This document shows, piece after piece, positions 1 through 12,427 of a stretch of 64,000 nt of DNA. Under the pieces are notes generated by a model, which was not told the origin of the DNA, ran no database searches, and was given only the letters and a program-made list of their open reading frames with translations. The position numbers and the translations under genes were made by a program. How positions within the stretch are numbered: the first letter of the stretch is position 1; every line of letters begins with the position of its first letter. Origin of the DNA: Mesorhizobium sp. 1M-11 (GTDB lineage: Bacteria; Pseudomonadota; Alphaproteobacteria; Rhizobiales; Rhizobiaceae); contig NZ_LJSD01000016.1 in assembly GCF_001303895.1 (NCBI RefSeq), positions 1 through 64,000 of the forward strand, read 5' to 3'.

Positions 1-1094
<1,094 letters not shown>

Positions 1095-1156
1095 ATCGTC
1101 CTACTCCAAAAATGTTTCGCAGGCTGGACCGCAGCCTGGCCAAATTGCCTGGTTGT

Positions 1157-1804
1157 TTATGCCGCCTTGGCCGGTCCGGCCGGGAACACGCCGGACATGA
1201 CCATGAAGCCCTTCAGGCGTTTGACGCGATCGCACCAGCGGCGGATTGCCGGATAGTCCTGCCTCGGTATGCCGCCCTCTTCCGAGAGCATGATGTAGGG
1301 AAAGCAGGCAATGTCGGCGATGGTCGGATGCGCAGCCGAACAGAGCCAGATCCGTCCCTCCTGTTCGCCGAACCACAGGTGTTCGTCGAGAATGCGGAAC
1401 AAGCGGTGAGCACCGACGCGCGCGGCCTCGACATCGAAGTCATAGAACAGCGCGTCGTGCAGTCGCGCTGCCGAGGCCGTGCCGGTGATACCATCGGCGA
1501 AGGCAAGCCACTGACTGATCTCGCCAAGCAAAGCCGCCTCGTCGCGCGGATACCAGGTACCAGACGGGTCATATTTCGACGCGAGATAGACCAGGATCGC
1601 CTGAGCATCGCGCAGCACCAGACCGTCGTCATCGATTACCGGCAACTGGCCAAGCGGATTGATCTTGAGGAACCATTCCGACTTGTGTTCGCGGCCGGGA
1701 TAGAAGTCGATCGGTACGGTCTTGTAGTCGACACCCAGCATGCTCATCAGCAGCCTGAGTTTGTAGCAATTGCCCGACAGTTCGTAATCGTAGAGCGTGA
1801 TCAT
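1157..1804 (-). CDS. Glutathione S-transferase-like protein, probable NdmE-type subunit
   Basis: A 215-residue GST-fold protein. The N-terminal thioredoxin-like domain starts MITLYDYELSGNCYK and includes the cis-proline segment GQLPVIDDDG at about residues 52-61 and the LRDAQAILVYLA helix; an all-alpha C-terminal domain follows. It is 11 bases from the upstream NdmD-like gene and precedes frmA on the same strand. In P. putida CBB5, NdmE is a GST-like protein required for the N7-demethylase complex with NdmC and NdmD. The same gene neighbourhood here suggests a structural or assembly role rather than ordinary conjugation. That role is inferred from context; the sequence alone shows only a GST. 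Confidence 0.8.
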   Translation of the reverse strand: MITLYDYELSGNCYKLRLLMSMLGVDYKTVPIDFYPGREHKSEWFLKINPLGQLPVIDDDGLVLRDAQAILVYLASKYDPSGTWYPRDEAALLGEISQWLAFADGITGTASAARLHDALFYDFDVEAARVGAHRLFRILDEHLWFGEQEGRIWLCSAAHPTIADIACFPYIMLSEEGGIPRQDYPAIRRWCDRVKRLKGFMVMSGVFPAGPAKAA

Positions 1805-1815
1805 CGGCTTGCTTC

Positions 1816-3582
1816 CTATAGATCGAGAACGAGCCGCGCCGATTTGGCGCGTGAGACGCAGGTCATGATCTTGGTGCCGGACTTGCGCTCGGCGTCGTTG
1901 AGATAAACATCCTGATGATCCGGCTCGCCTTCGATGACGGTTGCCAGGCAGGTACCGCAGGCCCCTTGCTCGCAGGAAGACGGCATGTCGACACCAGCTT
2001 CGCGCATAACATCGAGGATGGTGCGGCCGGCGGGCACTTTGAGCGTGACGCAGGAGCGCGCCAAGGCGACCTCGAAGCTCGAGCTATCATCGATCTTGTT
2101 GGTGTTCTTGAAGTACTCGAAGTGCACGGCCGCTTCCGGCCAGCCGGCCTCAGTGGCAACGTTGCGCGCCGCTTCAAGCATCGGCCCGGGTCCGCACAGA
2201 TAGAGATGCCTGCCAGGCTGATAGTTTGCCAGGATCTCACGCAGCTTGGCACCGGTCGCCTCCGGTGTCAGGCCAAGATGCGGCTTGAGCGCCCCACCCA
2301 GACCCGATGTCTTTTCAGGGAACGCCAGCTGTGCTTCGTTCTGCGCGAAATAGTGAAGGTCGAAGGCGAGATTCTGGTTGTGAAGCGCCTGCGCCATGGC
2401 GATCAGCGGCGTGATACCGATGCCGCCGGCGATAAAGATCGTCTTCACCGCGTCTCGCCGCAGAGGGAAATTGTTGCGCGGCTCCGAGATCGCCAGCACG
2501 TCTCCCTGGCGCAGCGTTTCGTGCATGCAGATTGAACCGCCCTTGGACTCCTTCTCGAGCTTCACCCCGATGACGTAGCTCTCGCTCTCACCGGGACCGT
2601 TCGTGATCGAGTATTGCCGGATCAGTCCGTTCGGCATGTGGACGTCGATGTGGGCACCAGGCTGGAATGTCGGCAACAGCCCTCTGATAGGACGCAGTTC
2701 GAAGCCGGCAATGCCGTCCGCCGCCTGCCATTTCCTTGCCACCTCGACACGGATCGTCGCCTTGCGGCCATGCTTGGTCTCTTCCGGCATCTCGGCAAGT
2801 TCAGGGGAAACGCGCTCGATAACTGGCTCAAGCGGCGCGGGTGCCGGCCTCGCCACCGCCTCGCGCTCGACGACGTCGCGCAACTTCGACAGCCGGTCGT
2901 TGTGATGGTGCAGGACAGCCATCCGAACGGCACCCTCAGCCCTACCCTCGAGCACGCCCCGGATCACCGAGCGATTGGAGTCAACCGGCTGGACGAAGAA
3001 CACGGCGAGCGTTGTCGAGCTGCCCTCGACAGCGCGAAGCGCTACGGAAAAATCGTTTGCCGCCTCGACGGTGACCTTGGCATCGCTGCCATCGATCTGG
3101 CCGGTCGGCTGGAAGCGATAGCTCCGGAGCCTGGCCGCAACCGCGTCAGCCGGCGCGTTGACCGCAATGCCGCGCAAGGTGAGCAACTCACCTTCGGCAA
3201 AGCCCGGCAACTCCGGTACCTCTCCTTGCGGTTCCTCGGCCGACCAGACCAGGCCATAGCGCTCCACTGCCGCGAAGGTCCGATTGGTAATGGTGCGGGC
3301 AGGTGCATCGGCTGGATGAGCAGGAATGTAGGTGCAGCCTGCCGTGCGGTTCGAGTAACGCCAGCCATGATACTGGCACTTCAGTTCACGACCGTCGTTG
3401 ATGCCGATGGACAGGCGAACGCCACGGTGCAGACAACGGTTTTCCCAAACGTTGATATAGCCGTCGTCGGCACGCCAGACGGCGAATTCGCGGCCAAGGA
3501 GCTGGCCGTGGAAGACATGGCGAAAAGGCAGATCGTAGGACGCGGCAATGGGATGCCATCTGGTCTTGGCGGTATCGAGCAT
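1816..3582 (-). CDS. NdmD-like reductase: Rieske domain fused to FMN/NAD(P)H oxidoreductase and plant-type ferredoxin
   Basis: A 588-residue electron-transfer protein with three parts. Residues 1-110 form a Rieske [2Fe-2S] domain with C50-x-H52 (CLHRG) and C69-x-x-H72 (CQYHGW). A linker leads to a phthalate-dioxygenase-reductase-type flavin/NAD domain at about 275-500 with RQYSITNG and GGIGITPL. The C-terminus is a plant-type [2Fe-2S] ferredoxin with C537, C542, C545 and C575. Ordinary oxygenase reductases have no Rieske domain; NdmD of the caffeine N-demethylase system does, and supplies it to NdmC, which lacks one. The two upstream oxygenase genes here also lack Rieske ligands, so this protein probably donates the cluster to both. 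I chose the ATG at 3582 because TGGAGAC lies just upstream and the length fits; the frame extends to 3615. Confidence 0.88.
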   Translation of the reverse strand: MLDTAKTRWHPIAASYDLPFRHVFHGQLLGREFAVWRADDGYINVWENRCLHRGVRLSIGINDGRELKCQYHGWRYSNRTAGCTYIPAHPADAPARTITNRTFAAVERYGLVWSAEEPQGEVPELPGFAEGELLTLRGIAVNAPADAVAARLRSYRFQPTGQIDGSDAKVTVEAANDFSVALRAVEGSSTTLAVFFVQPVDSNRSVIRGVLEGRAEGAVRMAVLHHHNDRLSKLRDVVEREAVARPAPAPLEPVIERVSPELAEMPEETKHGRKATIRVEVARKWQAADGIAGFELRPIRGLLPTFQPGAHIDVHMPNGLIRQYSITNGPGESESYVIGVKLEKESKGGSICMHETLRQGDVLAISEPRNNFPLRRDAVKTIFIAGGIGITPLIAMAQALHNQNLAFDLHYFAQNEAQLAFPEKTSGLGGALKPHLGLTPEATGAKLREILANYQPGRHLYLCGPGPMLEAARNVATEAGWPEAAVHFEYFKNTNKIDDSSSFEVALARSCVTLKVPAGRTILDVMREAGVDMPSSCEQGACGTCLATVIEGEPDHQDVYLNDAERKSGTKIMTCVSRAKSARLVLDL

Positions 3583-3617
3583 TGTTGTCTCCAGAAATGG
3601 TCTTGCGCGGCTCACGC

Positions 3618-4523
3618 TCAGGTGGCGGCAGGGATGACCCCGTAGGTCACACCCTTCTGACTGAGCCAGCGGCGATAGGCGATGGCCGACTTGTCGGCAC
3701 GAATGGGAGTTTCAGCGCGCGGATCGAGCGGCAGCCGCTTCGGGAACTGGTTCTCCAGGATCGGCTTGTCCTGGCCGAAGATCGTCTGCTGGAAGCGCTT
3801 GATGACCTTGTCCTCATTGTCTTCATCAAGCAGGCACAACATCATGTGCGCGCGCACATGTTCCTGGTCGATGGGCTGCAGAAACACCGCGATCACATCA
3901 CGCCTGCTCTCGTCCAGCGGGCTGGATTTGTAGAGCACCGAGCAAAACGGGTGCGGCACCCGATAGACGTAGTCGACGTCGGCGCCGCCCGAGGCCGTCG
4001 CCGCTGCCATCGGTTGAAAGAACCGGCAACGCGTGGCGAGGATTTCGTCGCGGTCGACCGAAATCTCGACATCGTACTCCTTCACCTCCGTGTGCGGCTC
4101 CGCACCCAGAATGTCGGTATGGACATAGGGAAAATGCCCCATGTCGAGAAAGTTCTCGATTGCCCGCGGTGCCGACACATTCACACCAATTGTCGCGGCA
4201 TTGAGCCTGCGGCGATCTGCTTCGTCGAACTCCGGAATCGGGAACAAATCTGCCTGTGGATCGCCGAGCGAAGTCCAGATATAGCCATAGGCATGCTTGA
4301 CCGGCAGTTGGTCGGCAACGGTCGCGACGTCCACCGTGCTCCCCTCGATGAGATCCGCGCGATCGCGCCAGACGGCGGCATTGCCCTTTCCATCGACGGC
4401 ATAACTGAGGCGTTCCTCGAGCAATATGGTATCGACAACCACGTTTGGCTTCACCTCCGACAACGCAGCCAGCGGGTGCCATAGGTTGAGGATCACCTGG
4501 TCCGTGCATCGCGTTTTGGCCAT
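3618..4523 (-). CDS. NdmC-like Rieske-oxygenase catalytic subunit lacking the Rieske centre (second paralogue)
   Basis: A 301-residue protein homologous to the catalytic half of aromatic-ring-hydroxylating or N-demethylating oxygenases. The mononuclear iron site is clear: ENFLDMGHFPYVH gives H130 and H135, and GQDKPILENQ near the C-terminus supplies the usual acidic ligand. The N-terminal part keeps Rieske-like strands (LWHPLAA, YGYIWTSLGDP) but has no C-x-H or C-x-x-H pair, so it cannot hold a [2Fe-2S] cluster. It is a clear paralogue of the gene at 4545-5411. The ATG at 4523 has GAGGGA upstream and aligns with the paralogue's start; the frame opens at 4538. Predicted role: oxidative N-demethylation using electrons from the NdmD-like protein. 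The substrate is not determined by sequence. Confidence 0.85.
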   Translation of the reverse strand: MAKTRCTDQVILNLWHPLAALSEVKPNVVVDTILLEERLSYAVDGKGNAAVWRDRADLIEGSTVDVATVADQLPVKHAYGYIWTSLGDPQADLFPIPEFDEADRRRLNAATIGVNVSAPRAIENFLDMGHFPYVHTDILGAEPHTEVKEYDVEISVDRDEILATRCRFFQPMAAATASGGADVDYVYRVPHPFCSVLYKSSPLDESRRDVIAVFLQPIDQEHVRAHMMLCLLDEDNEDKVIKRFQQTIFGQDKPILENQFPKRLPLDPRAETPIRADKSAIAYRRWLSQKGVTYGVIPAAT

Positions 4524-4544
4524 GAAAGAATCCCTCATCGAAGC

Positions 4545-5411
4545 TCACATCCGCGCCGGTATCGCGCCATAGGTAACTGATTTGTCGCGCAGCCAACGCC
4601 GATAGAGTACGGCAACGGCGTCGGCACGGATCGGCGTTTCTGCCCGCGGATCGAGTGGCAGCCGTTTTGGAACCTGGTTTTCGAGGATCGGCTTGTCCTG
4701 GGCGAAGATCAGCTGCATGAAGCTGCGGATCCCGGCCTCGTCGATGCCCTCCTTGAGATAGCAGAGGAAGGGATGAGCGACGCAATTGTCCTCGTCGACC
4801 GGCTGCACGAACAGGGTGATGACATCCAGGCGATGCTTCTGCACCGGATTGCTCTTGTAGAGCGCCACCGTATAGGGCCGAATCACCTTGTAGACATAGT
4901 CTACGATGAAACCTTCCTTGGCCGTCGGCGAGGCAACCGGCTGATAGAACTGGCATTCGGTCGCAACCAGTTCGTCGGCAGCCGTCAATTCGACCTTGTA
5001 GGGCGCGACTTCCGTATGCGGCTCATCACCAAGCCAGCCTGTGTGAACGAAGGGAAAATGCCCCATGTCGAGGAAATTCTCGACAGCCCGCAGACCCGAG
5101 ACCCGAACCGCGATGGAGCCGCCGGTGACGAGATGTCGATCCCCCTCTTCAGCCTCCGGTACGAAGACGATGTCGCGCTCGGGCTTGCCCAGACAAGCCC
5201 AAAGAAATCCGTAACGCTTGGTCGATTTGACCAATGTGCCGGTATCGTTGCGGACCACTTCCTTGTCGTAGCGTCCCCGGCTGTGAATGGTGAGGTCGGC
5301 TCCGAGAAGCCGGGTGTGGAATGGCTCATCCGACGACAGATTCGTCAGGTCCGCCACCACATGCCAATCGTTAAGAAGAACTCTGTCGCTACAAAGGGCT
5401 GCTTTGCTCAT
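4545..5411 (-). CDS. NdmC-like Rieske-oxygenase catalytic subunit lacking the Rieske centre (first paralogue)
   Basis: A 288-residue non-heme iron oxygenase subunit, first gene of the minus-strand arm. ENFLDMGHFPFVH places iron ligands at H118 and H123, and AQDKPILENQ carries the expected third ligand. As in its neighbour, the N-terminal Rieske fold survives only as RYGFLWACLGKP-type strands; no C-x-H plus C-x-x-H set exists anywhere in the protein. NdmC of P. putida CBB5 has the same defect and comparable length. The ATG at 5411 is preceded by AGGGAGGGTGCC, far better than the upstream start at 5432. It is separated by 21 bases from its paralogue, and shares the 5412-5652 divergent promoter region with the GntR gene. 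Confidence 0.85.
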   Translation of the reverse strand: MSKAALCSDRVLLNDWHVVADLTNLSSDEPFHTRLLGADLTIHSRGRYDKEVVRNDTGTLVKSTKRYGFLWACLGKPERDIVFVPEAEEGDRHLVTGGSIAVRVSGLRAVENFLDMGHFPFVHTGWLGDEPHTEVAPYKVELTAADELVATECQFYQPVASPTAKEGFIVDYVYKVIRPYTVALYKSNPVQKHRLDVITLFVQPVDEDNCVAHPFLCYLKEGIDEAGIRSFMQLIFAQDKPILENQVPKRLPLDPRAETPIRADAVAVLYRRWLRDKSVTYGAIPARM

Positions 5412-5476
5412 GGCACCCTCCCTGGCTAGCACTTCCCCATGAACCTAGCTCTGTTATGACATAATTGGAAACACAG

Positions 5477-5513
5477 GATTGGATATCAATCAATAAGAAT
5501 CTGCATATCAATC
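5477..5513. promoter_or_regulatory. Candidate GntR operator between divergent arms
   Basis: An inverted repeat GATTG-GATAT-CAATC occupies 5477-5491. The nonamer ATATCAATC occurs twice as a direct repeat at 5483-5491 and 5505-5513, exactly 22 bases apart, or about two helical turns. Another GATTG lies at 5541-5545, beside a possible -35 TTGACA at 5526-5531. The sites lie in the AT-rich gap between the NdmC-like gene and the GntR gene, as expected for an autoregulated FCD-type GntR repressor controlling both arms. Binding is inferred from position and symmetry only. Confidence 0.45.
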
Positions 5514-5652
5514 CAAGAATTTTGGTTGACAGGGAAACTTGATTGAATACCGATATGGAATTCGTAACTCGGGATATGCGGCGCCGTCGGCCTCGCGAAC
5601 ACGAGAGCTGACCGTCAGCAAGCCAAAGGCACTGACGGGGGAGGAAGTTGTC

Positions 5653-6420
5653 ATGAGCAGCCGCTCGCAGGCGATTGCTGACACATTGACCCGGGCGATC
5701 CTCGATCACCGGCTTGTCCCGGGCTGCAAACTTGGCGAGCGTGAGCTTTCCGAGATTTTCGACGTCAGCCGTATCGTCATTCGCCAATCCCTCATACGTC
5801 TCGCCGACGACGGCCTCGCTCAGATCGAACGCAACCGGGGCGCCTTCGTCGCTCACCCGAGCATGCAGGACGCAATGGAAATCTACGACGCCCTGACCCT
5901 GGTGGAACAGGGCGTTGCAGCGCAGCTCAGCGACCGCCTCGGCCCTGCCGGCTGGGCGGAATTGCGCCAGCATGTCGAGCGTCAGCGTCAGGCGGTCGCA
6001 GTCGGCAATGACGCGCTGGCCGACGTGCTGGGGCAGGAGTTCCACACCGTATTCGTGCGTCTCAGCCGCAACAAGGTGATGCAGGAAATCCATGCCCAGC
6101 TCGTGCGGCGCACCACTCTGCTCAGATCGCTCATCACCGCCGATTTCGACTACTGCAACCTGCTCGACGACCATGCGCGGGTGATCGAGCTGCTCGAGAA
6201 AGGACGGCTGAAGCAAGCCATGGAATTGATCGACGCGCATCACAGGAGTGTCGTGCGCGGCTACATCATGGACAGACAGGTCTTCCCTGAACTGACCCCC
6301 CGCGAGGCGCTCGAACCTTACCTGAACACGAAGGCGGGCGAACAACCGAAGCCCGCGCCAAGGAAAGAGAAAAAGGAGAGCAAAACGCGGGCACACGCCC
6401 ACGTTCACGCCGACGAATAG
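5653..6420 (+). CDS. GntR-family transcriptional regulator, FCD subfamily
   Basis: A 255-residue DNA-binding regulator. The winged-helix domain is at about residues 1-75, with the recognition segment SEIFDVSRIVIRQSLIRLADDG. An all-helical FCD ligand domain follows, with metal-type residues (H in QEFHTVF, DDHARVIE, AHHRSVV). The C-terminus is Lys/Pro/His-rich and probably disordered. The frame opens at a TTG at 5539, but I prefer the ATG at 5653, which follows a strong GGGGGAGGAAG ribosome-binding site. It is divergent from the oxygenase genes and 44 bases upstream of the importer genes, so it probably controls the whole module in response to the imported compound. Confidence 0.88.
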   Translation: MSSRSQAIADTLTRAILDHRLVPGCKLGERELSEIFDVSRIVIRQSLIRLADDGLAQIERNRGAFVAHPSMQDAMEIYDALTLVEQGVAAQLSDRLGPAGWAELRQHVERQRQAVAVGNDALADVLGQEFHTVFVRLSRNKVMQEIHAQLVRRTTLLRSLITADFDYCNLLDDHARVIELLEKGRLKQAMELIDAHHRSVVRGYIMDRQVFPELTPREALEPYLNTKAGEQPKPAPRKEKKESKTRAHAHVHADE

Positions 6421-6464
6421 AACCGGCGGACAAGCCGGGCAAACCAACAGAGGGTTACACCATA

Positions 6465-7559
6465 ATGCTCAATCTCAGCAGACGAAAATTCTTGCAGTAT
6501 ACGGGCGCGGCGGGAGCTGCGCTGACCACTGGCGGCATATCCGGCGCCGCGCGTGCCCAGGACCCGCTCAAGATCGGTGTCGTCTACGTTTCCCCGGTCG
6601 CCGAAATCGGCTGGACCAAGCAACACAGCCTTGGTGTCGAGGCCATCAAACAGGAATTCGGCGACAAGGCCGCCATCACCGTCATCGACAATATCTTCAT
6701 GCCGCAGGACGCGGAACGCGTGTTCCGCGAATTGGCGGCCTCGGGCAACCAACTGATCTTCGGTACGTCCTTTTCGCATGGCACGCCGATGCAGAAGGTC
6801 GCGCCACGGTTCCCGAAAACCGCCTTCGAACATTGCTCCGGCATCGTTCATCTCGCCAACCTAGGCACTTTCGAGGCGAAGTATTACGAGGGTTCCTATG
6901 TGGCCGGCGCGTCCGGCGCGCATATGAGCAAGTCGAACAAGATCGGCTTCATCGGCGGCTTCCCGATTCCCGACATCGTCGGTCCGGCGAACGCCTTGCT
7001 GCTTGGTGCCCAGAGCGTCAAGCCGGACATCACCTGCAATGCCATCTTCCTCAATTCCTGGTTCGATCCGGGCAAGGAAAAGGAAGCGGCCAACACGCTG
7101 CTGTCACAGGGCTGTGACGTCATCTGCTCGATGACTGATACCGCCACTGGCGTGCAGGTGGCTGGCGAAGGCGGCGCCTGGTCGATCGGCTACGCAAGCG
7201 ACATGGCGAAGTTCGGTTCCGGCAAGCAACTGACCGCTTTCACGCTCGATTGGTCGGCCGACTATTTGCGGGCAGCCAAAGGCGTTGCCGAGGGCAATTG
7301 GAAACCCGAGGCGCGCTGGGATGGTCTGGCTGCCGGTATCGTCAAGATGGCGCCTTACAATGAGGGGATTCCTGCCGACGTCGTTGCCAAGCTCAAGCAA
7401 CTCGAGACGGACGTGGGTTCCGGCAAGGTGCACCCCTATGCGGGCGAGCTGAAGGATCAGGACGGCAACGTGAAGGTCGCCGCCGGCTCGGTGCTGGAAG
7501 ACAAGGACATCCGCAGCATGAACTGGTTCGTCAAAGGAATGATCGGCAAGCTCGGCTGA
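6465..7559 (+). CDS. BMP-family ABC transporter substrate-binding protein (nucleoside/purine type)
   Basis: A 364-residue periplasmic binding protein of the BmpA/Med (basic membrane protein) family. The N-terminus carries a twin-arginine signal (SRRKFLQYTGAAGAA, cleavage probably after ARAQ), so it may be exported folded by Tat. Mature sequence starts with IGVVYVSPVAEIGWT, typical of the family's first strand, and has the FGTSFSHG and GFIGGFPIPDI segments of the two-lobed fold. Family members bind nucleosides and purine-like ligands. It heads a four-gene importer with a duplicated ATPase and two permeases. Since it neighbours a predicted N-demethylase, a methylated purine is a reasonable ligand, but this is inference. 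Confidence 0.88.
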   Translation: MLNLSRRKFLQYTGAAGAALTTGGISGAARAQDPLKIGVVYVSPVAEIGWTKQHSLGVEAIKQEFGDKAAITVIDNIFMPQDAERVFRELAASGNQLIFGTSFSHGTPMQKVAPRFPKTAFEHCSGIVHLANLGTFEAKYYEGSYVAGASGAHMSKSNKIGFIGGFPIPDIVGPANALLLGAQSVKPDITCNAIFLNSWFDPGKEKEAANTLLSQGCDVICSMTDTATGVQVAGEGGAWSIGYASDMAKFGSGKQLTAFTLDWSADYLRAAKGVAEGNWKPEARWDGLAAGIVKMAPYNEGIPADVVAKLKQLETDVGSGKVHPYAGELKDQDGNVKVAAGSVLEDKDIRSMNWFVKGMIGKLG

Positions 7560-7651
7560 CCGTCTCCCTTTCAGATCATACCTGCCGGAAAGCAGATGCG
7601 CCGGTAGGTATGACTGTGCTCTTCCGTCCAACCCCAATGGCAGGACCGGCT

Positions 7652-9196
7652 ATGATCCCGCGCCTTGAATTGCGCAACATCACCAAGAGCTACCCCGGCA
7701 TCGTTGCAAATGACGACATCTCGATGTCGATCATGCCAGGGAAAATCCATGCCGTGCTCGGCGAAAACGGTGCCGGCAAGTCCACCTTGATGAAAATCAT
7801 CTATGGCGTGGCCCAGGCCGACTCCGGCGAAATCTGGTGCGACGGCAAGCGGATAGAAGCGCACAATCCGGCGAGTTCGCGGGCGCTGGGCATCGAGATG
7901 GTTTACCAGCACTTTGCGCTGTTTGAATCCGTCACGGTGGTCGAGAACATCGCGCTGTCCGTCTCGAGCACCTTCGATCTCAAGACGCTTGCCCGCCAGA
8001 TCACCCACCTCTCGAACCGATATGGAATGCCGATCGATCCTCATCGCCGCGTGCTCGACCTGTCGGTCGGTGAGCGCCAGCGTGTCGAGATCGTGCGCTG
8101 CCTGTTGCAGGCCCCAAAGCTCCTGATCCTCGACGAGCCGACATCGGTGCTGGCACCGCAAGCGGTTGGGAAATTGTTCGAAACCTTGCGTCAACTCGCC
8201 GCCGAGGGCTGTTCGATCGTCTACATCAGCCACAAGCTCGATGAAGTGCAGGAGCTATGCGACTCCGCCACCGTGCTGCGAAACGGAAAGGTGACGGGCT
8301 CGGCGAAGCCCAAGGAAACGACGTCGCTGGAACTCGCCCGTATGATGGTTGGCTCGAAACTGCCTGAAATGCGTGTGGTCCCCTCGGTGCCGAGCGCCAG
8401 GCCCGTGCTCGAAGTGCGGGGCCTCACATCGCCGGCCCGCGACAAATATGGAGTCGCGCTGAAGAATGTTTCGTTTGAGGTCCATGGTGGTGAGATTGTT
8501 GGATTGGCCGGCGTCTCCGGCAACGGCCAGGCGGATCTGATCGCACTGCTCAGCGGCGAGCGCCGACACGCCGATGCATCCGTAGTGCGCATCGACGGCA
8601 AGGCGGCTGGCCATCTCAACGCCAGCGAGCGGCGCGGGCTCGGCATGGCGTTTGTACCGGAGGAGCGTCTCGGTCGAGGTGCGGTGCCGCCCCACACATT
8701 GTGGGAAAATGCGGTTTTGACCGCCAATCGCCGCGGCGGGCTGGTGCGGCACGGTATGGTCGATCGCGGCAAGGCGGCCGGCTTTGCGCGAGACATCATT
8801 GAACGCTTCAAGGTCAAGGCCAACGGCCCCTCCTCAAGTGCCCAGAGCCTGTCCGGCGGCAATCTTCAAAAATTCATCGTCGGCCGCGAGATCGCGCTGA
8901 AACCGAAGCTGTTCCTCGTCTCCCAACCAACGTGGGGCGTTGACGTGGGTGCGGCAGCCTTCATCCGGCAGAACATCCTGGATCTGAGCCGCGCAGGTTC
9001 CGCCGTGCTGGTGGTCTCGGAGGAACTCGACGAGCTGTTTGAGATCTGCGACCGGCTGCTCGTCATCTGTCAGGGCCAGGTCTCGCCACCGCTCATCAGA
9101 ACAAAAACCAACCGTGAAGAAGTTGGCCTCCTCATGACAGGGGCCGACCGCGGCAATGATATCGAGGAGAGAAGCGAAGTTGCTGTACAGAATTGA
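7652..9196 (+). CDS. ABC transporter ATP-binding protein, tandem ATPase of nucleoside/sugar type
   Basis: A 514-residue protein with two fused ABC ATPase domains. The first has an intact Walker A (GENGAGKST), a variant signature (LSVGERQR) and Walker B (LLILDEPTSVLAP). The second has a degenerate Walker A (GVSGNGQADL), signature LSGGNLQKF and a substituted Walker B in which FLVSQPTWG replaces the usual DEPT, so ATP hydrolysis is probably asymmetric. This layout is standard for BMP-linked nucleoside importers. I chose the ATG at 7652, where the conserved MIPRLELRNITKSYPG begins; the frame is open from 7610. It overlaps the next gene. Confidence 0.9.
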   Translation: MIPRLELRNITKSYPGIVANDDISMSIMPGKIHAVLGENGAGKSTLMKIIYGVAQADSGEIWCDGKRIEAHNPASSRALGIEMVYQHFALFESVTVVENIALSVSSTFDLKTLARQITHLSNRYGMPIDPHRRVLDLSVGERQRVEIVRCLLQAPKLLILDEPTSVLAPQAVGKLFETLRQLAAEGCSIVYISHKLDEVQELCDSATVLRNGKVTGSAKPKETTSLELARMMVGSKLPEMRVVPSVPSARPVLEVRGLTSPARDKYGVALKNVSFEVHGGEIVGLAGVSGNGQADLIALLSGERRHADASVVRIDGKAAGHLNASERRGLGMAFVPEERLGRGAVPPHTLWENAVLTANRRGGLVRHGMVDRGKAAGFARDIIERFKVKANGPSSSAQSLSGGNLQKFIVGREIALKPKLFLVSQPTWGVDVGAAAFIRQNILDLSRAGSAVLVVSEELDELFEICDRLLVICQGQVSPPLIRTKTNREEVGLLMTGADRGNDIEERSEVAVQN

Positions 9197-10247
9197 ACAG
9201 CGGCCCGAGCCGTCCGCTTCCATGCGCATAGCCGCTCCAATAATCGCCACAGCACTTACGATCGCTGTGGGTTCGGCGATGTTTGCCGGTCTGGGTTATG
9301 ATCCGGTATCCACCTTGCAGGCTTTCTTCATCACCCCAATCAGTTCTTTGAACGGTTTGTCGGAACTGTTGCTGAAAGCGTCGCCGCTGATCCTGATCGC
9401 TTGTGGCTTGGCCGTGGGCTTCCGCGCCAATGTCTGGAACATAGGTGCAGAGGGCCAGTTGATCATCGGCGCTATCGCAGCTTGCGGCGTCGGGCTGTTC
9501 TACCCCAATCCCGAAAGCCCGATCCTGCTGCCGTTGATGTTTGTCGCAGGCGCCGCTGCGGGCATGGCCTGGGCTGCGATTCCGGCATTTCTCCGCGCCA
9601 GGCTGAACACGAACGAAATCCTGGTCACCTTGATGATGACCTACATCGCCACGCTCTTTCTCTCGTGGCTCGTGCATGGACCATGGCGCGACCCAGCAGG
9701 CTTCAACTACCCGCAGACGGCGCTGCTGCCGGCGGCAGCCATGTTCGAACCCTTTGACTATGCCTACCGTGTCAACTCGTCGGTGTTCATCACCGTCGTC
9801 GCGGTCGTGCTGATGTGGCTTTTCACCGACCGCAGTTTCCTCGGCTACAAGATGAAGGTCAGCGGTGCGGCCCCGCATGCGGCCCGCTACGCGGGCTTCC
9901 GCGAATCCTCGGCGGTGTGGACCGGCCTGCTCGCGGGCGGCGCTGCCGCGGGCATTGCAGGCATGGCCGAAGTTGCCGGACCACTCGGACAACTCTCACC
10001 CCAGATCTCGCCGGGCTATGGTTTCGCCGCCATCATTGTCGCTTTCATCGGCCGGCTGAACGCCTTCGGTATCGTCCTCGGCGGGTTGCTGATGTCGCTC
10101 CTGTTCCTTGGTGGCGAGACTGTGCAGATGAACCTTGGTTTGTCGTCGTCGCTGACCCGCATCTTCCAGGGTATTCTTCTGTTCTTCCTGCTGGCCACCG
10201 ATTTCTTCATCTTCTACCGGTTTCGCCGCGTCCCGGAGCACGCCTGA
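9180..10247 (+). CDS. ABC transporter permease (nucleoside-type, first subunit)
   Basis: An inner-membrane permease of about 355 residues in the BPD_transp_2 family with eight or more hydrophobic segments. It includes the conserved ANVWNIGAEGQLIIGA stretch and the TNEILVTLMMTYIA loop seen in nucleoside-importer permeases. The start is probably the TTG at 9180, preceded by GAGGAGAG; an ATG eight codons earlier at 9156 is the alternative. Either start overlaps the ATPase gene, showing translational coupling. It pairs with the following permease to form the membrane channel. Confidence 0.9.
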   Translation: MLYRIEQRPEPSASMRIAAPIIATALTIAVGSAMFAGLGYDPVSTLQAFFITPISSLNGLSELLLKASPLILIACGLAVGFRANVWNIGAEGQLIIGAIAACGVGLFYPNPESPILLPLMFVAGAAAGMAWAAIPAFLRARLNTNEILVTLMMTYIATLFLSWLVHGPWRDPAGFNYPQTALLPAAAMFEPFDYAYRVNSSVFITVVAVVLMWLFTDRSFLGYKMKVSGAAPHAARYAGFRESSAVWTGLLAGGAAAGIAGMAEVAGPLGQLSPQISPGYGFAAIIVAFIGRLNAFGIVLGGLLMSLLFLGGETVQMNLGLSSSLTRIFQGILLFFLLATDFFIFYRFRRVPEHA

Positions 10248-11167
10248 TGGATCTTTTCATCGCCATCTTCACCGGCACGGCCATAGCCGCCACGCCGCTG
10301 ATTTTTGCAGCGCTCGGCGAGCTCGTCGTCGAGAAATCCGGCGTGCTCAACCTCGGCATCGAAGGAATGATGCTGGTGGGAGCAGCCGCCGCTTTCTGGG
10401 CTGTTATCGCCGGGCTGCCCATGCCGGTTGCGATTCTCGCAGGCGCGCTCGCCGGCGCGGCCGCCTCGCTGTTGTTTGGCGTGCTGGCACTCACGTTTTT
10501 GACCAATCAGTATGCCGCGGGACTCGCGCTTGCCATCTTCGGATCGGGTGTCTCGGCTTTCCTCGGACGCGGCTTCGGCTCGGCGCCAATCGACGCACTC
10601 AAGCGCATCCACATCCCGCTATTGTCCGACATTCCTGTTATCGGACCGATGTTCTTTCGCTTCGACCCGATGGTCTATTTCGCCATCCTGATGTTCTTCG
10701 TCATCAGCTGGTTCCTGTACCGGACGAAAAGCGGACTGATCCTTCGCACGATCGGCGAGTCACCCGAGACGTCCCATGCAATCGGCTATCCAGTGATCCG
10801 CATCCGCTATCTCGCGGTGCTCTTTGGCGGGCTGATGGCCGGTCTCGCCGGCGCCTATCTGTCGGTGGCATATACACCGCTGTGGGTGGAGAACATGACC
10901 GCCGGCAAAGGCTGGATTTCACTTGCGCTGGTGGTCTTTGCCACCTGGCGGCCTCTGCGCATCTTGCTCGGAGCCTGGCTGTTCGGTGGAATGACCATTC
11001 TGCAACTGCAGGGGCAGGCGCTGGGCCTGGCCGTTCCATCGGAACTGCTTTCCGCCTTGCCTTATCTGGCAACGATCATTGTGCTGGTCATCATATCGCA
11101 GAACCGCCAGACACTCTCGCTGCACTTCCCGGCATCTCTGGCCAAGCCGTTTAGGCCTGCCACGTGA
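10247..11167 (+). CDS. ABC transporter permease (nucleoside-type, second subunit)
   Basis: A 306-residue hydrophobic permease of the same family as its neighbour. The signature EKSGVLNLGIEGMMLVGA near residue 30 corresponds to the cytoplasmic coupling region of nucleoside-type permeases. Its ATG overlaps the stop codon of the previous gene (TGATG), so the two are translationally coupled. It is the last gene of the plus-strand arm; the next gene is on the other strand. A GC-rich hairpin without a clear T-run lies at about 11186-11208 and could end the transcript. Confidence 0.92.
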   Translation: MDLFIAIFTGTAIAATPLIFAALGELVVEKSGVLNLGIEGMMLVGAAAAFWAVIAGLPMPVAILAGALAGAAASLLFGVLALTFLTNQYAAGLALAIFGSGVSAFLGRGFGSAPIDALKRIHIPLLSDIPVIGPMFFRFDPMVYFAILMFFVISWFLYRTKSGLILRTIGESPETSHAIGYPVIRIRYLAVLFGGLMAGLAGAYLSVAYTPLWVENMTAGKGWISLALVVFATWRPLRILLGAWLFGGMTILQLQGQALGLAVPSELLSALPYLATIIVLVIISQNRQTLSLHFPASLAKPFRPAT

Positions 11168-11281
11168 CCGAATGGAGGACGCTGCGCTCTGCTCCAGAGC
11201 AGCGCGCTCGTGAGCACTGTAGCCGTCCCCCGGACGTAGAGCCTTGCCGTTCTATCTGAAGACCTGCCGGAAAGCCGGTTT

Positions 11282-12274
11282 TCAAGCCGTTCTCTGCTCG
11301 AATTCGAGTACCTGCGCCTTCTGCCGCAGGCCTGTTGCGACGACGGATACCCTGAACTTTCCTTCCAGCGCCTGATCGAATATGGCGCCGACTATGATGT
11401 CGGCATCGGCATCGACTTCCTCACGGATACGGGTTGCTGCCTCATCGACCTCGAACAACGTCATGTCTGGCCCGCCGGAGATCGACACCAGCACGCCTCT
11501 TGCACCCCCCATCGATGCCTCGTCGAGAAGCGGGTTCGCGATTGCCGCTTCGGCCGCCGCCTTTGCCCGCCCCTCGCCTGAAGCCTCGCCCGTACCCATC
11601 ATTGCCCGGCCCATACCGCGCATCACCGCGCGCACATCGGCGAAATCGAGATTGATCAGCCCTTCCTTCATGATGAGGTCGGTGATGCAACCGACGCCGG
11701 CATAAAGGACGCGATCGGCCATGACGAAAGCATCCTCGAAGGTCGTCCTGGCATCGGCAATCCTGAAGAGGTTCTGGTTCGGGATGACGATTACCGTGTC
11801 GGCGCATTCGCGAAGTCGCTCGATGCCTTCCTCCGCCGCCGCCATGCGGCGCTTTCCTTCGAAGGCAAACGGCTTGGTGACGACGGCAACCGTCAGGATG
11901 CCGGCCTGCCGTGCCGCATGTGCGATGACGGGGGCAGCACCCGTTCCCGTTCCGCCTCCCATACCTGCGGTCACGAAGCACATATGTGTTCCCGCCAGGT
12001 GATCCATGATCTCGCTGATCGACTCTTGCGCCGCTGCGTCACCGACTTCCGGCACCGAACCCGCCCCCAGCCCTTCGGTAATGGCCGCCCCCAACTGGAT
12101 CAACCGCGGTGCCTTTGACATGGCAAGCGCCTGCGCATCCGTGTTGGCGACCAGGAACTCCGCGCCCTGCAATCCGGTGGCGATCATGTTGTTGACGGCA
12201 TTGCCGCCGCCGCCGCCCACCCCGACCACGGTGATCCTGGGTTTCATCTCGGTGATTCCCGGCCTGGCGTTCAT
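11282..12274 (-). CDS. ftsZ2: FtsZ-like tubulin homologue lacking the C-terminal tail (FtsZ2 type)
   Basis: A 330-residue GTPase of the FtsZ family. It has the nucleotide-binding [14 protein letters not shown], the tubulin signature [10 protein letters not shown] and the T7 synergy loop [11 protein letters not shown] with both aspartates, so it should bind and hydrolyse GTP on polymerising. It stops straight after the core domain: there is no linker and no conserved C-terminal peptide for binding FtsA, ZipA or MinC. Sinorhizobium meliloti has a comparable short second FtsZ. The division cluster (ftsQ, ftsA) is absent here, so the principal ftsZ is elsewhere. Start ATG 12274 follows GGAAGGAAG; the frame opens at 12325. 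Confidence 0.88.
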
Positions 12275-12427
12275 TGCTGTCTTCCTTCCAAATGTTCGCC
12301 TTGTCGGTCCGAGACTTTGGGGCACGAGCCACGAATCGGAACAACACCCGCCTCAAGCAGGGAAACAGACCGAGCCCCGCCTCGCAAGCCTTGGACGGTT
12401 GAGGGGACGAGGGTCACCAATTTCTGC

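Follow-up and report, generated by a model that had tools for sequence, protein, structure and literature searches.

A putative Mesorhizobium Rieske oxygenase with its metal sites on separate proteins and its likely role in the demethylation of imported purines

We analyzed a stretch of 64,000 nucleotides from Mesorhizobium sp. 1M-11 (contig NZ_LJSD01000016.1, positions 1 to 64,000; hereafter the window). Its left end carries a minus-strand operon in the order oxA-oxB-reductase-GST-frmA, with intergenic gaps of 21, 35, 11, and 62 bases (Table 1). oxA and oxB encode two oxygenases, and the Rieske domain of the adjacent reductase is the only one on the contig. The gene of a glutathione S-transferase (GST)-like protein belongs to the same operon. 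frmA starts at 1094 and leaves the contig, window base 1 being contig base 1, and its product shares 73% identity with an S-(hydroxymethyl)glutathione dehydrogenase annotated in locus L007. The original prediction, made for the segment 1157..5411, held that the GST-like gene and frmA complete the set; both are indeed in the operon, but frmA is partial and lies outside that segment. A GntR/FCD regulator and a complete BMP-type ABC importer (6465-11167) are encoded in the opposite orientation to the operon. Judging from sequence comparison and predicted structures, the operon probably encodes a Rieske oxygenase whose metal sites are on separate proteins and which demethylates imported N-methylated purines with two specificities.

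Table 1. Features at the left end of the window
Feature	Position	Strand	Remark
frmA, zinc alcohol dehydrogenase, partial at contig end	1..1094	-	
GST-like subunit, NdmE-like, 215 residues	1157..1804	-	67% identity to P. putida pTmex protein
Reductase/cluster donor, 588 residues	1816..3582	-	Pfam Rieske, NAD-binding, Fer2
Predicted degenerate catalytic domain inside reductase, residues 115-250	2833..3240	-	Iron helix deleted; Asp ligand replaced by Leu
oxB, second Rieske-less oxygenase, 301 residues	3618..4523	-	Pfam VanA_C and KshA_C
oxA, Rieske-less mononuclear-iron oxygenase, 288 residues	4545..5411	-	Pfam VanA_C; cluster lobe deleted
GATTG-N5-CAATC inverted repeat, candidate GntR operator	5477..5491		Between divergent genes
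GntR/FCD regulator, divergent	5656..6420	+	
BMP-family periplasmic binding protein, twin-arginine translocation (TAT) signal	6465..7559	+	Nearest structures 6pi5 (AtzT), 3s99
ABC importer ATPase	7610..9196	+	
ABC importer permease 1	9156..10247	+	
ABC importer permease 2	10241..11167	+	

The operon resembles NdmCDE of Pseudomonas putida CBB5, which passages of PMC4408171 and PMC10380055 describe as the 7-methylxanthine N7-demethylase and a 3:3:3 complex of 360 kDa. Both have a Rieske-less oxygenase, a reductase with an N-terminal Rieske domain, a GST-like subunit, and adjacent formaldehyde genes. Identities were calculated to the proteins of the P. putida plasmid pTmex (L008), on which the labels NdmA to NdmE are our own and were given from gene order, length, and annotation. 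Identity to the NdmC-type protein was 46% for oxA and 47% for oxB, and identity to the NdmD type was 37% for the reductase; the GST, the most conserved piece, was 67% identical to the NdmE type. These values bear out the NdmCDE-like design that had been proposed. The window locus differs from NdmCDE in having two oxygenases per donor, and in having a BMP/ABC importer and no NCS2 permease. The two NCS2-type matches of the genome are on other contigs (C23 and C10) than that of the window (C16).

Homologs of ndmCDE in rhizobia have been mentioned before. According to passages of a 2015 review (PMC4408171), homologs beyond the closest ones are of unknown function and are found mainly in Sinorhizobium and Mesorhizobium; these passages assign them no function and mention neither tandem oxygenases nor a split-subunit origin nor a link to an importer. 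The review was the only paper found in a literature search on NdmC in Sinorhizobium and methylxanthine demethylation in Mesorhizobium. Its homologs are very probably the same operon type as that of the window. An ortholog on pSymA of Sinorhizobium meliloti strain ml47 (oxA 85% identical) matches the window locus in both oxygenases, the reductase, the GST, the regulator, and the importer. Thus the design is already known from NdmCDE and the rhizobial homologs; the present analysis adds the split by complementary deletions, the pairing of two oxygenase lineages, the different forms of the donor, and the link to a purine importer.

The two oxygenases are 49% identical to each other. They matched only C-terminal oxygenase domains in Pfam and no Rieske model, and ENFLDMGHF..VH is present in both, in agreement with the claim that they keep the iron site without Rieske ligands. 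Relatives were collected in a scan of bacterial and archaeal genomes, from the best 80 matches of which 78 loci were kept (cited by numbers with the prefix L); more loci exist. The queries were Rieske-less oxygenases and Rieske donors, and clean splits between donors and oxygenases are partly due to this selection. None of 113 Rieske-less oxygenase relatives in the 78 loci (0/113) carries the C-x-H...C-x-x-H motif, a count that describes the Rieske-less family and not all oxygenases, since the set was gathered with Rieske-less queries. The original prediction had considered that resequencing might restore a Rieske motif in the oxygenase genes. Neither this nor any other of its refuting results was seen among those that could be examined, and loss of the motif through sequencing error is ruled out by the relatives.

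The iron-site residues of oxA (D115, H118, H123, and D239) are present without exception in 59 aligned oxygenases, namely 57 of 100 listed frames and the two window proteins. All four are kept in 125 of the 126 rows of a wider set, the exception being L084 with Arg for H118. Having no cluster of their own, the oxygenases might be thought dead paralogs retained as scaffolds. This is hardly credible and was rejected, as the iron ligands are kept across deep divergence and the NdmC-type oxygenase is active together with its partners according to passages of PMC4408171 and PMC10380055. In Sinorhizobium sp. K101 (L012) and S. meliloti 4H41 (L061), oxA is reduced to a frameshifted fragment of ~69 residues (10001-10200). 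oxB and the reductase are intact downstream of the fragment, and the GST of K101 also looks split.

The 588-residue reductase has the residues and domains described in the original prediction: a Rieske domain (Pfam 9-91) with C50, H52, C69, and H72, flavin/NAD domains (~276-490), and a plant-type ferredoxin (~510-588). None of the four ligands varies among the 57 aligned donors, i.e. the window's and 56 of the 71 donors in the 78 loci, near-duplicates and L042, L053, and L077 having been removed by hand. All 71 donors contain the cluster motif, although they had been found through that domain. Together with six full-length oxygenases, these donors, which lack the iron helix, make up the 77 Rieske proteins of the 78 loci. 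As judged from sequence and from structures predicted as single chains, residues 1 to ~250 of the reductase are a degenerate Rieske oxygenase alpha subunit, with the cluster lobe intact and the iron helix gone. The same models indicate that the oxygenases carry the complementary deletion, the cluster lobe being missing, so that one enzyme is split between two partners. The window oxygenases and the N-terminal half of the donor share their fold with the full-length SxtT/GxtA and NdmA/NdmB, but these have both metal sites within one chain, unlike the window proteins. Passages of PMC4408171, PMC10380055, and PMC12445004 nowhere call the N-terminal half of NdmD a degenerate oxygenase, which is no proof that the idea is absent from print.

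The donor half is a module. Assigned by length and motif, donors of the type Rieske-flavin/NAD-ferredoxin, mostly of ~588 residues, occur in 53 of the 78 loci, Rieske-ferredoxin donors of 388-400 residues without a flavin domain in five (all Paraburkholderia), and the Rieske half alone in 11. In two loci the donor is cut by contig ends, and in seven there is no donor in reach. The free-standing donor of Rhizobium ruizarguesonis (L011) has 217 residues. The forms without a reductase bear on another explanation, in which the Rieske center of the donor is unused by these oxygenases and serves other oxygenases only, while the ferredoxin domain reduces the oxygenase iron directly. In a solved complex (6icm; passages of PMC12445004), NdmD is docked on NdmA through its ferredoxin domain, as this explanation would have it. 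However, the cluster motif is kept in every donor of a set found through it, and the 11 donors without a reductase or ferredoxin domain (by length and motif) still bear it, which makes an unused center very improbable.

Several arrangements of the donor genes were observed. In the five Paraburkholderia loci (L052, L054, L056, L057, and L060), the Rieske half is fused directly to the ferredoxin with no flavin/NAD domain, and the donor has as neighbors an oxygenase of the NdmC clade, a BMP protein, and a gene resembling those of 2-oxoglutarate oxygenases. Free-standing Rieske donors are found in L011, L087-L089, and L148 (953-10621). In L087-L089 and L148, the donor and GST genes are divergent from the importer and oxygenase genes. 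Several Rhizobiaceae genomes have two Rieske-less oxygenases ~15 kb apart on opposite strands, and in L148 an adenine-deaminase-like gene (below cut-off) is between the two.

For a quick tree without bootstrap, 125 of the 171 frames that had been extracted were combined with both window proteins and an outgroup. Frames were taken from loci up to L090 and from L115-L119, with lengths of 260-330 and no duplicates; long branches were noted, and one full-length oxygenase (L078, 8006) is included. The names oxA and oxB are best-hit or tree labels. The oxA clade (35 rows) and the NdmC clade (13 rows) both had a Shimodaira-Hasegawa-like approximate likelihood ratio test (SH-aLRT) value of 99, as had a Rhizobium clade of 10 rows that is paired with free-standing donors. 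A third rhizobial clade of five rows had a value of 100. The oxB set (63 rows) is diverse and is not a single clade. In this quick tree the NdmC clade holds neither oxA nor oxB of the window, unlike the oxygenase of NdmCDE, and the operon was therefore rejected as NdmCDE proper.

For substrate specificity, we take Asn282 and Phe286 of NdmA and Gln289 and Leu293 of NdmB to be the positions that distinguish N1 from N3 demethylation; titles in the PDB confirm only an NdmA 'QL mutant'. At the position of Asn282/Gln289, Met is found in 31 of the 35 oxA-clade rows, including the window's oxA (Met232), while Gln is found in 60 of 63 oxB rows, 13 of 13 NdmC-clade rows, and 10 of 10 Rhizobium-clade rows. 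The third rhizobial clade has His in 5 of 5 rows. Among the 78 loci, some of them cut by contig ends, oxA and oxB occur together in 30, only oxA of the two in four, and only oxB in 26.

A third Rieske-less lineage was noticed in five loci (L029:3946-4854, L030:3848-4744, L031:3859-4755, L059:6984-7874, and L085:9980-10849). It has its own BMP importer and adjoins genes for serine hydroxymethyltransferase and a glyoxylate-reductase-like protein; in L085 a BhcA-like aminotransferase, below its cut-off, is nearby. In L029-L031 the third oxygenase adjoins the oxA-oxB operon, and thus the three oxygenases may share one donor.

The operon might still be a plain 7-methylxanthine N7-demethylase, in which oxA or oxB carries out the NdmC reaction and the other is an N1 or N3 demethylase. 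The gene order and partners are the same as in NdmCDE, oxB has the same Gln as the NdmC clade, and the GST is close to the NdmE type. However, both oxygenases fall outside the NdmC clade of the quick tree, NdmA and NdmB are absent from the contig, the NCS2-type matches of the genome are elsewhere, and the deaminases beside some relatives (see below) suggest amino-purines over xanthines. We therefore consider a plain 7-methylxanthine demethylase unlikely. The interpretation as a system that works like NdmCDE is supported, and membership of the 7-methylxanthine demethylase itself is not. A different N-methyl compound, which the original prediction had suggested as possible, gained support from the position of both oxygenases outside the NdmC clade, from the Met of oxA, and from the importer and relatives that point to purines.

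The importer provides a link to purines. The closest solved relatives of its binding protein are purine binders, AtzT (6pi5, E 4e-90) and 3s99 (7e-87), and the next structure is at 1e-16. Passages of PMC6834077 report that AtzT was purified with guanine and binds guanine at 110 nM, and that adenine was modeled in 3s99. The window protein retains Ser97, Phe98, and the stacking Trp194 among the residues with which AtzT contacts guanine, and it has Trp in place of Tyr45. In the 78 loci, 31 BMP proteins are >60% identical to the window protein, and 30 of them have exactly its pocket string; that of L053 has one change. The original prediction had missed the importer as evidence, as well as the degenerate-oxygenase half of the reductase and the rhizobial homologs printed in passages of PMC4408171.

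Gene neighborhoods were counted in a stretch of up to 10 kb on each side of the oxygenase. Of the 78 loci, 59 have BMP in this stretch, 68 have GST, 18 guanine or 8-oxoguanine deaminase, 13 FrmA, six NCS2, four XdhB, and one ureidoglycolate lyase. As controls, 15 of 16 loci with full-length oxygenases of the same bacterial family were used; L133 was dropped since it holds a Rieske-less oxygenase, and L141 is short (11,960 bases). BMP was found in three of these 15 loci, the deaminase in one, and GST, FrmA, NCS2, XdhA, XdhB, and ureidoglycolate lyase in none, an indicative contrast only. Matches above curated cut-offs were guanine deaminase in L070, L043 (two), L021, and L077, 8-oxoguanine deaminase in L070 and L078, XdhA in L029, and adenosine deaminase in L085; the 8-oxoguanine-deaminase match in L011 was below its cut-off. 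In L021 (Mesorhizobium sp. L-8-3), which has the same oxA-oxB-reductase-GST operon, the guanine deaminase gene begins 60 bases past the GST. In the genome of the window, one 19-kb stretch contains genes for guanine deaminase, XdhA, XdhC, allantoinase/OHCU decarboxylase, ureidoglycine aminohydrolase, and ureidoglycolate lyase, and thus a freed purine could be used.

Several points weigh against purine demethylation with two specificities. Three polar pocket positions of AtzT differ in the window protein (Glu165 to Asp, Asn218 to Met, and Asn220 to Asp). There is no purine enzyme in the window's own operon, XdhA is near only two of the 78 loci, and two neighboring genes in S. meliloti matched no NCBIfam family at E 1e-60. 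The BMP link is not peculiar to Rieske-less oxygenases, since BMP is also near three of the 15 controls. Moreover, the counts are neither independent nor unbiased, because the loci are related and differ in length and because these same loci supplied the queries for the deaminase, XdhA, and other markers. The position of Phe286/Leu293 fails to separate oxA from oxB, because Phe predominates in both (33 of 35 oxA and 61 of 63 oxB rows). Finally, the Pfam name of the catalytic domain, VanA_C, is that of an O-demethylase.

The domain name and the nearest solved oxygenase structure, that of the saxitoxin hydroxylase SxtT, would suit an enzyme that O-demethylates or hydroxylates a compound other than a purine, for example a plant aromatic or a guanidine alkaloid. 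In a broad protein search, the best 120 of 4529 proteins were all VanA_C and none had a tested function. The Rieske domain expected of a VanA-type O-demethylase is absent from oxA and oxB in Pfam. A non-purine substrate appears improbable, as the importer is related to the purine-binding AtzT, deaminases are near some relatives, and the oxygenases share 46-47% identity with the methylxanthine-demethylase NdmC type. Demethylation rather than hydroxylation would be expected because of frmA in the operon and the relation to NdmC. Within purine demethylation, methylguanine salvage is only one candidate. A literature search found no paper on a Rieske 7-methylguanine demethylase and none on a BMP-family nucleoside ABC transporter in Rhizobium. 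An open reading frame after the GST on a Rhodospirillales metagenome contig (L034:14271-14951) looks by eye like a 7-cyano-7-deazaguanine synthase. Genes beyond fghA in L013 and L014 were also considered and were rejected as linked, being by eye ordinary thiamine genes.

In ordinary Rieske oxygenases, the cluster of a subunit hands the electron on to the iron of the subunit next to it. For purine demethylation by the split enzyme, we propose that the donor and oxygenase chains would assemble like those alpha subunits. Electrons would pass from NADH through the flavin, the plant-type ferredoxin, and the Rieske cluster of the donor to the bridging Asp115 and the iron of the neighboring oxygenase chain. 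Three alpha-like donors and three oxygenases would add up to six chains of the alpha type, and the 3:3 ratio would thereby be accounted for. The GST-like protein might hold the complex together, as proposed for NdmE. The BMP importer would take in the purine, and oxA and oxB would each oxidize a different N-methyl group or base. The formaldehyde would go to FrmA and the freed purine to the genome's own guanine/xanthine pathway. More tentatively, an alpha subunit may have been duplicated and split by complementary deletions, giving a pseudo-heterohexamer with one donor and interchangeable catalytic chains of different regiospecificity, which possibly serves Hyphomicrobiales in the salvage of methylated guanines or related bases from nucleic acids or plants and not in caffeine breakdown.

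Since the two metal sites are genetically separate, it would be possible to mix donor and acceptor chains, and to mutate and count each kind independently, which would make inter-subunit electron transfer directly testable. If several catalytic chains draw on one donor, new demethylation positions could be acquired in a modular fashion. The proposed role would also supply a function for a common operon family, and bacteria would have a route for methylated purines apart from caffeine. The window's family was searched in 297 genomes, including that of the window itself. oxB has a match at E 1e-3 in 83 of them, and in 73 the best match is stronger than 1e-50. In the other 10, the weak oxB match is in an open frame of 346-422 residues.

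oxA and GST are 90-93% identical to those of two genomes of another genus (g52), and oxA is 83-85% identical to that of two further genera. In two congeners, oxA is only 78-79% and GST 87% identical, and two other congeners have no counterpart. The pyruvate carboxylase is 90-91% identical to those of both g52 and the congeners. Compared with this gene, the identity pattern of oxA and GST suggests that the operon may have been exchanged horizontally.

Among 23 aligned intergenic regions, the arms of the inverted repeat GATTG-N5-CAATC are kept in at least 90%, and a GCTAG...CTAGC leader element just before oxA (5411) is conserved. A scan of window positions 1-12400 against Rfam at gathering scores gave no matches, and thus the conserved leader fits no curated family. 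Beyond the importer, a short second-FtsZ-like protein of 347 residues (11282-12325) adjoins a pyruvate-carboxylase-like gene, both recognized by eye.

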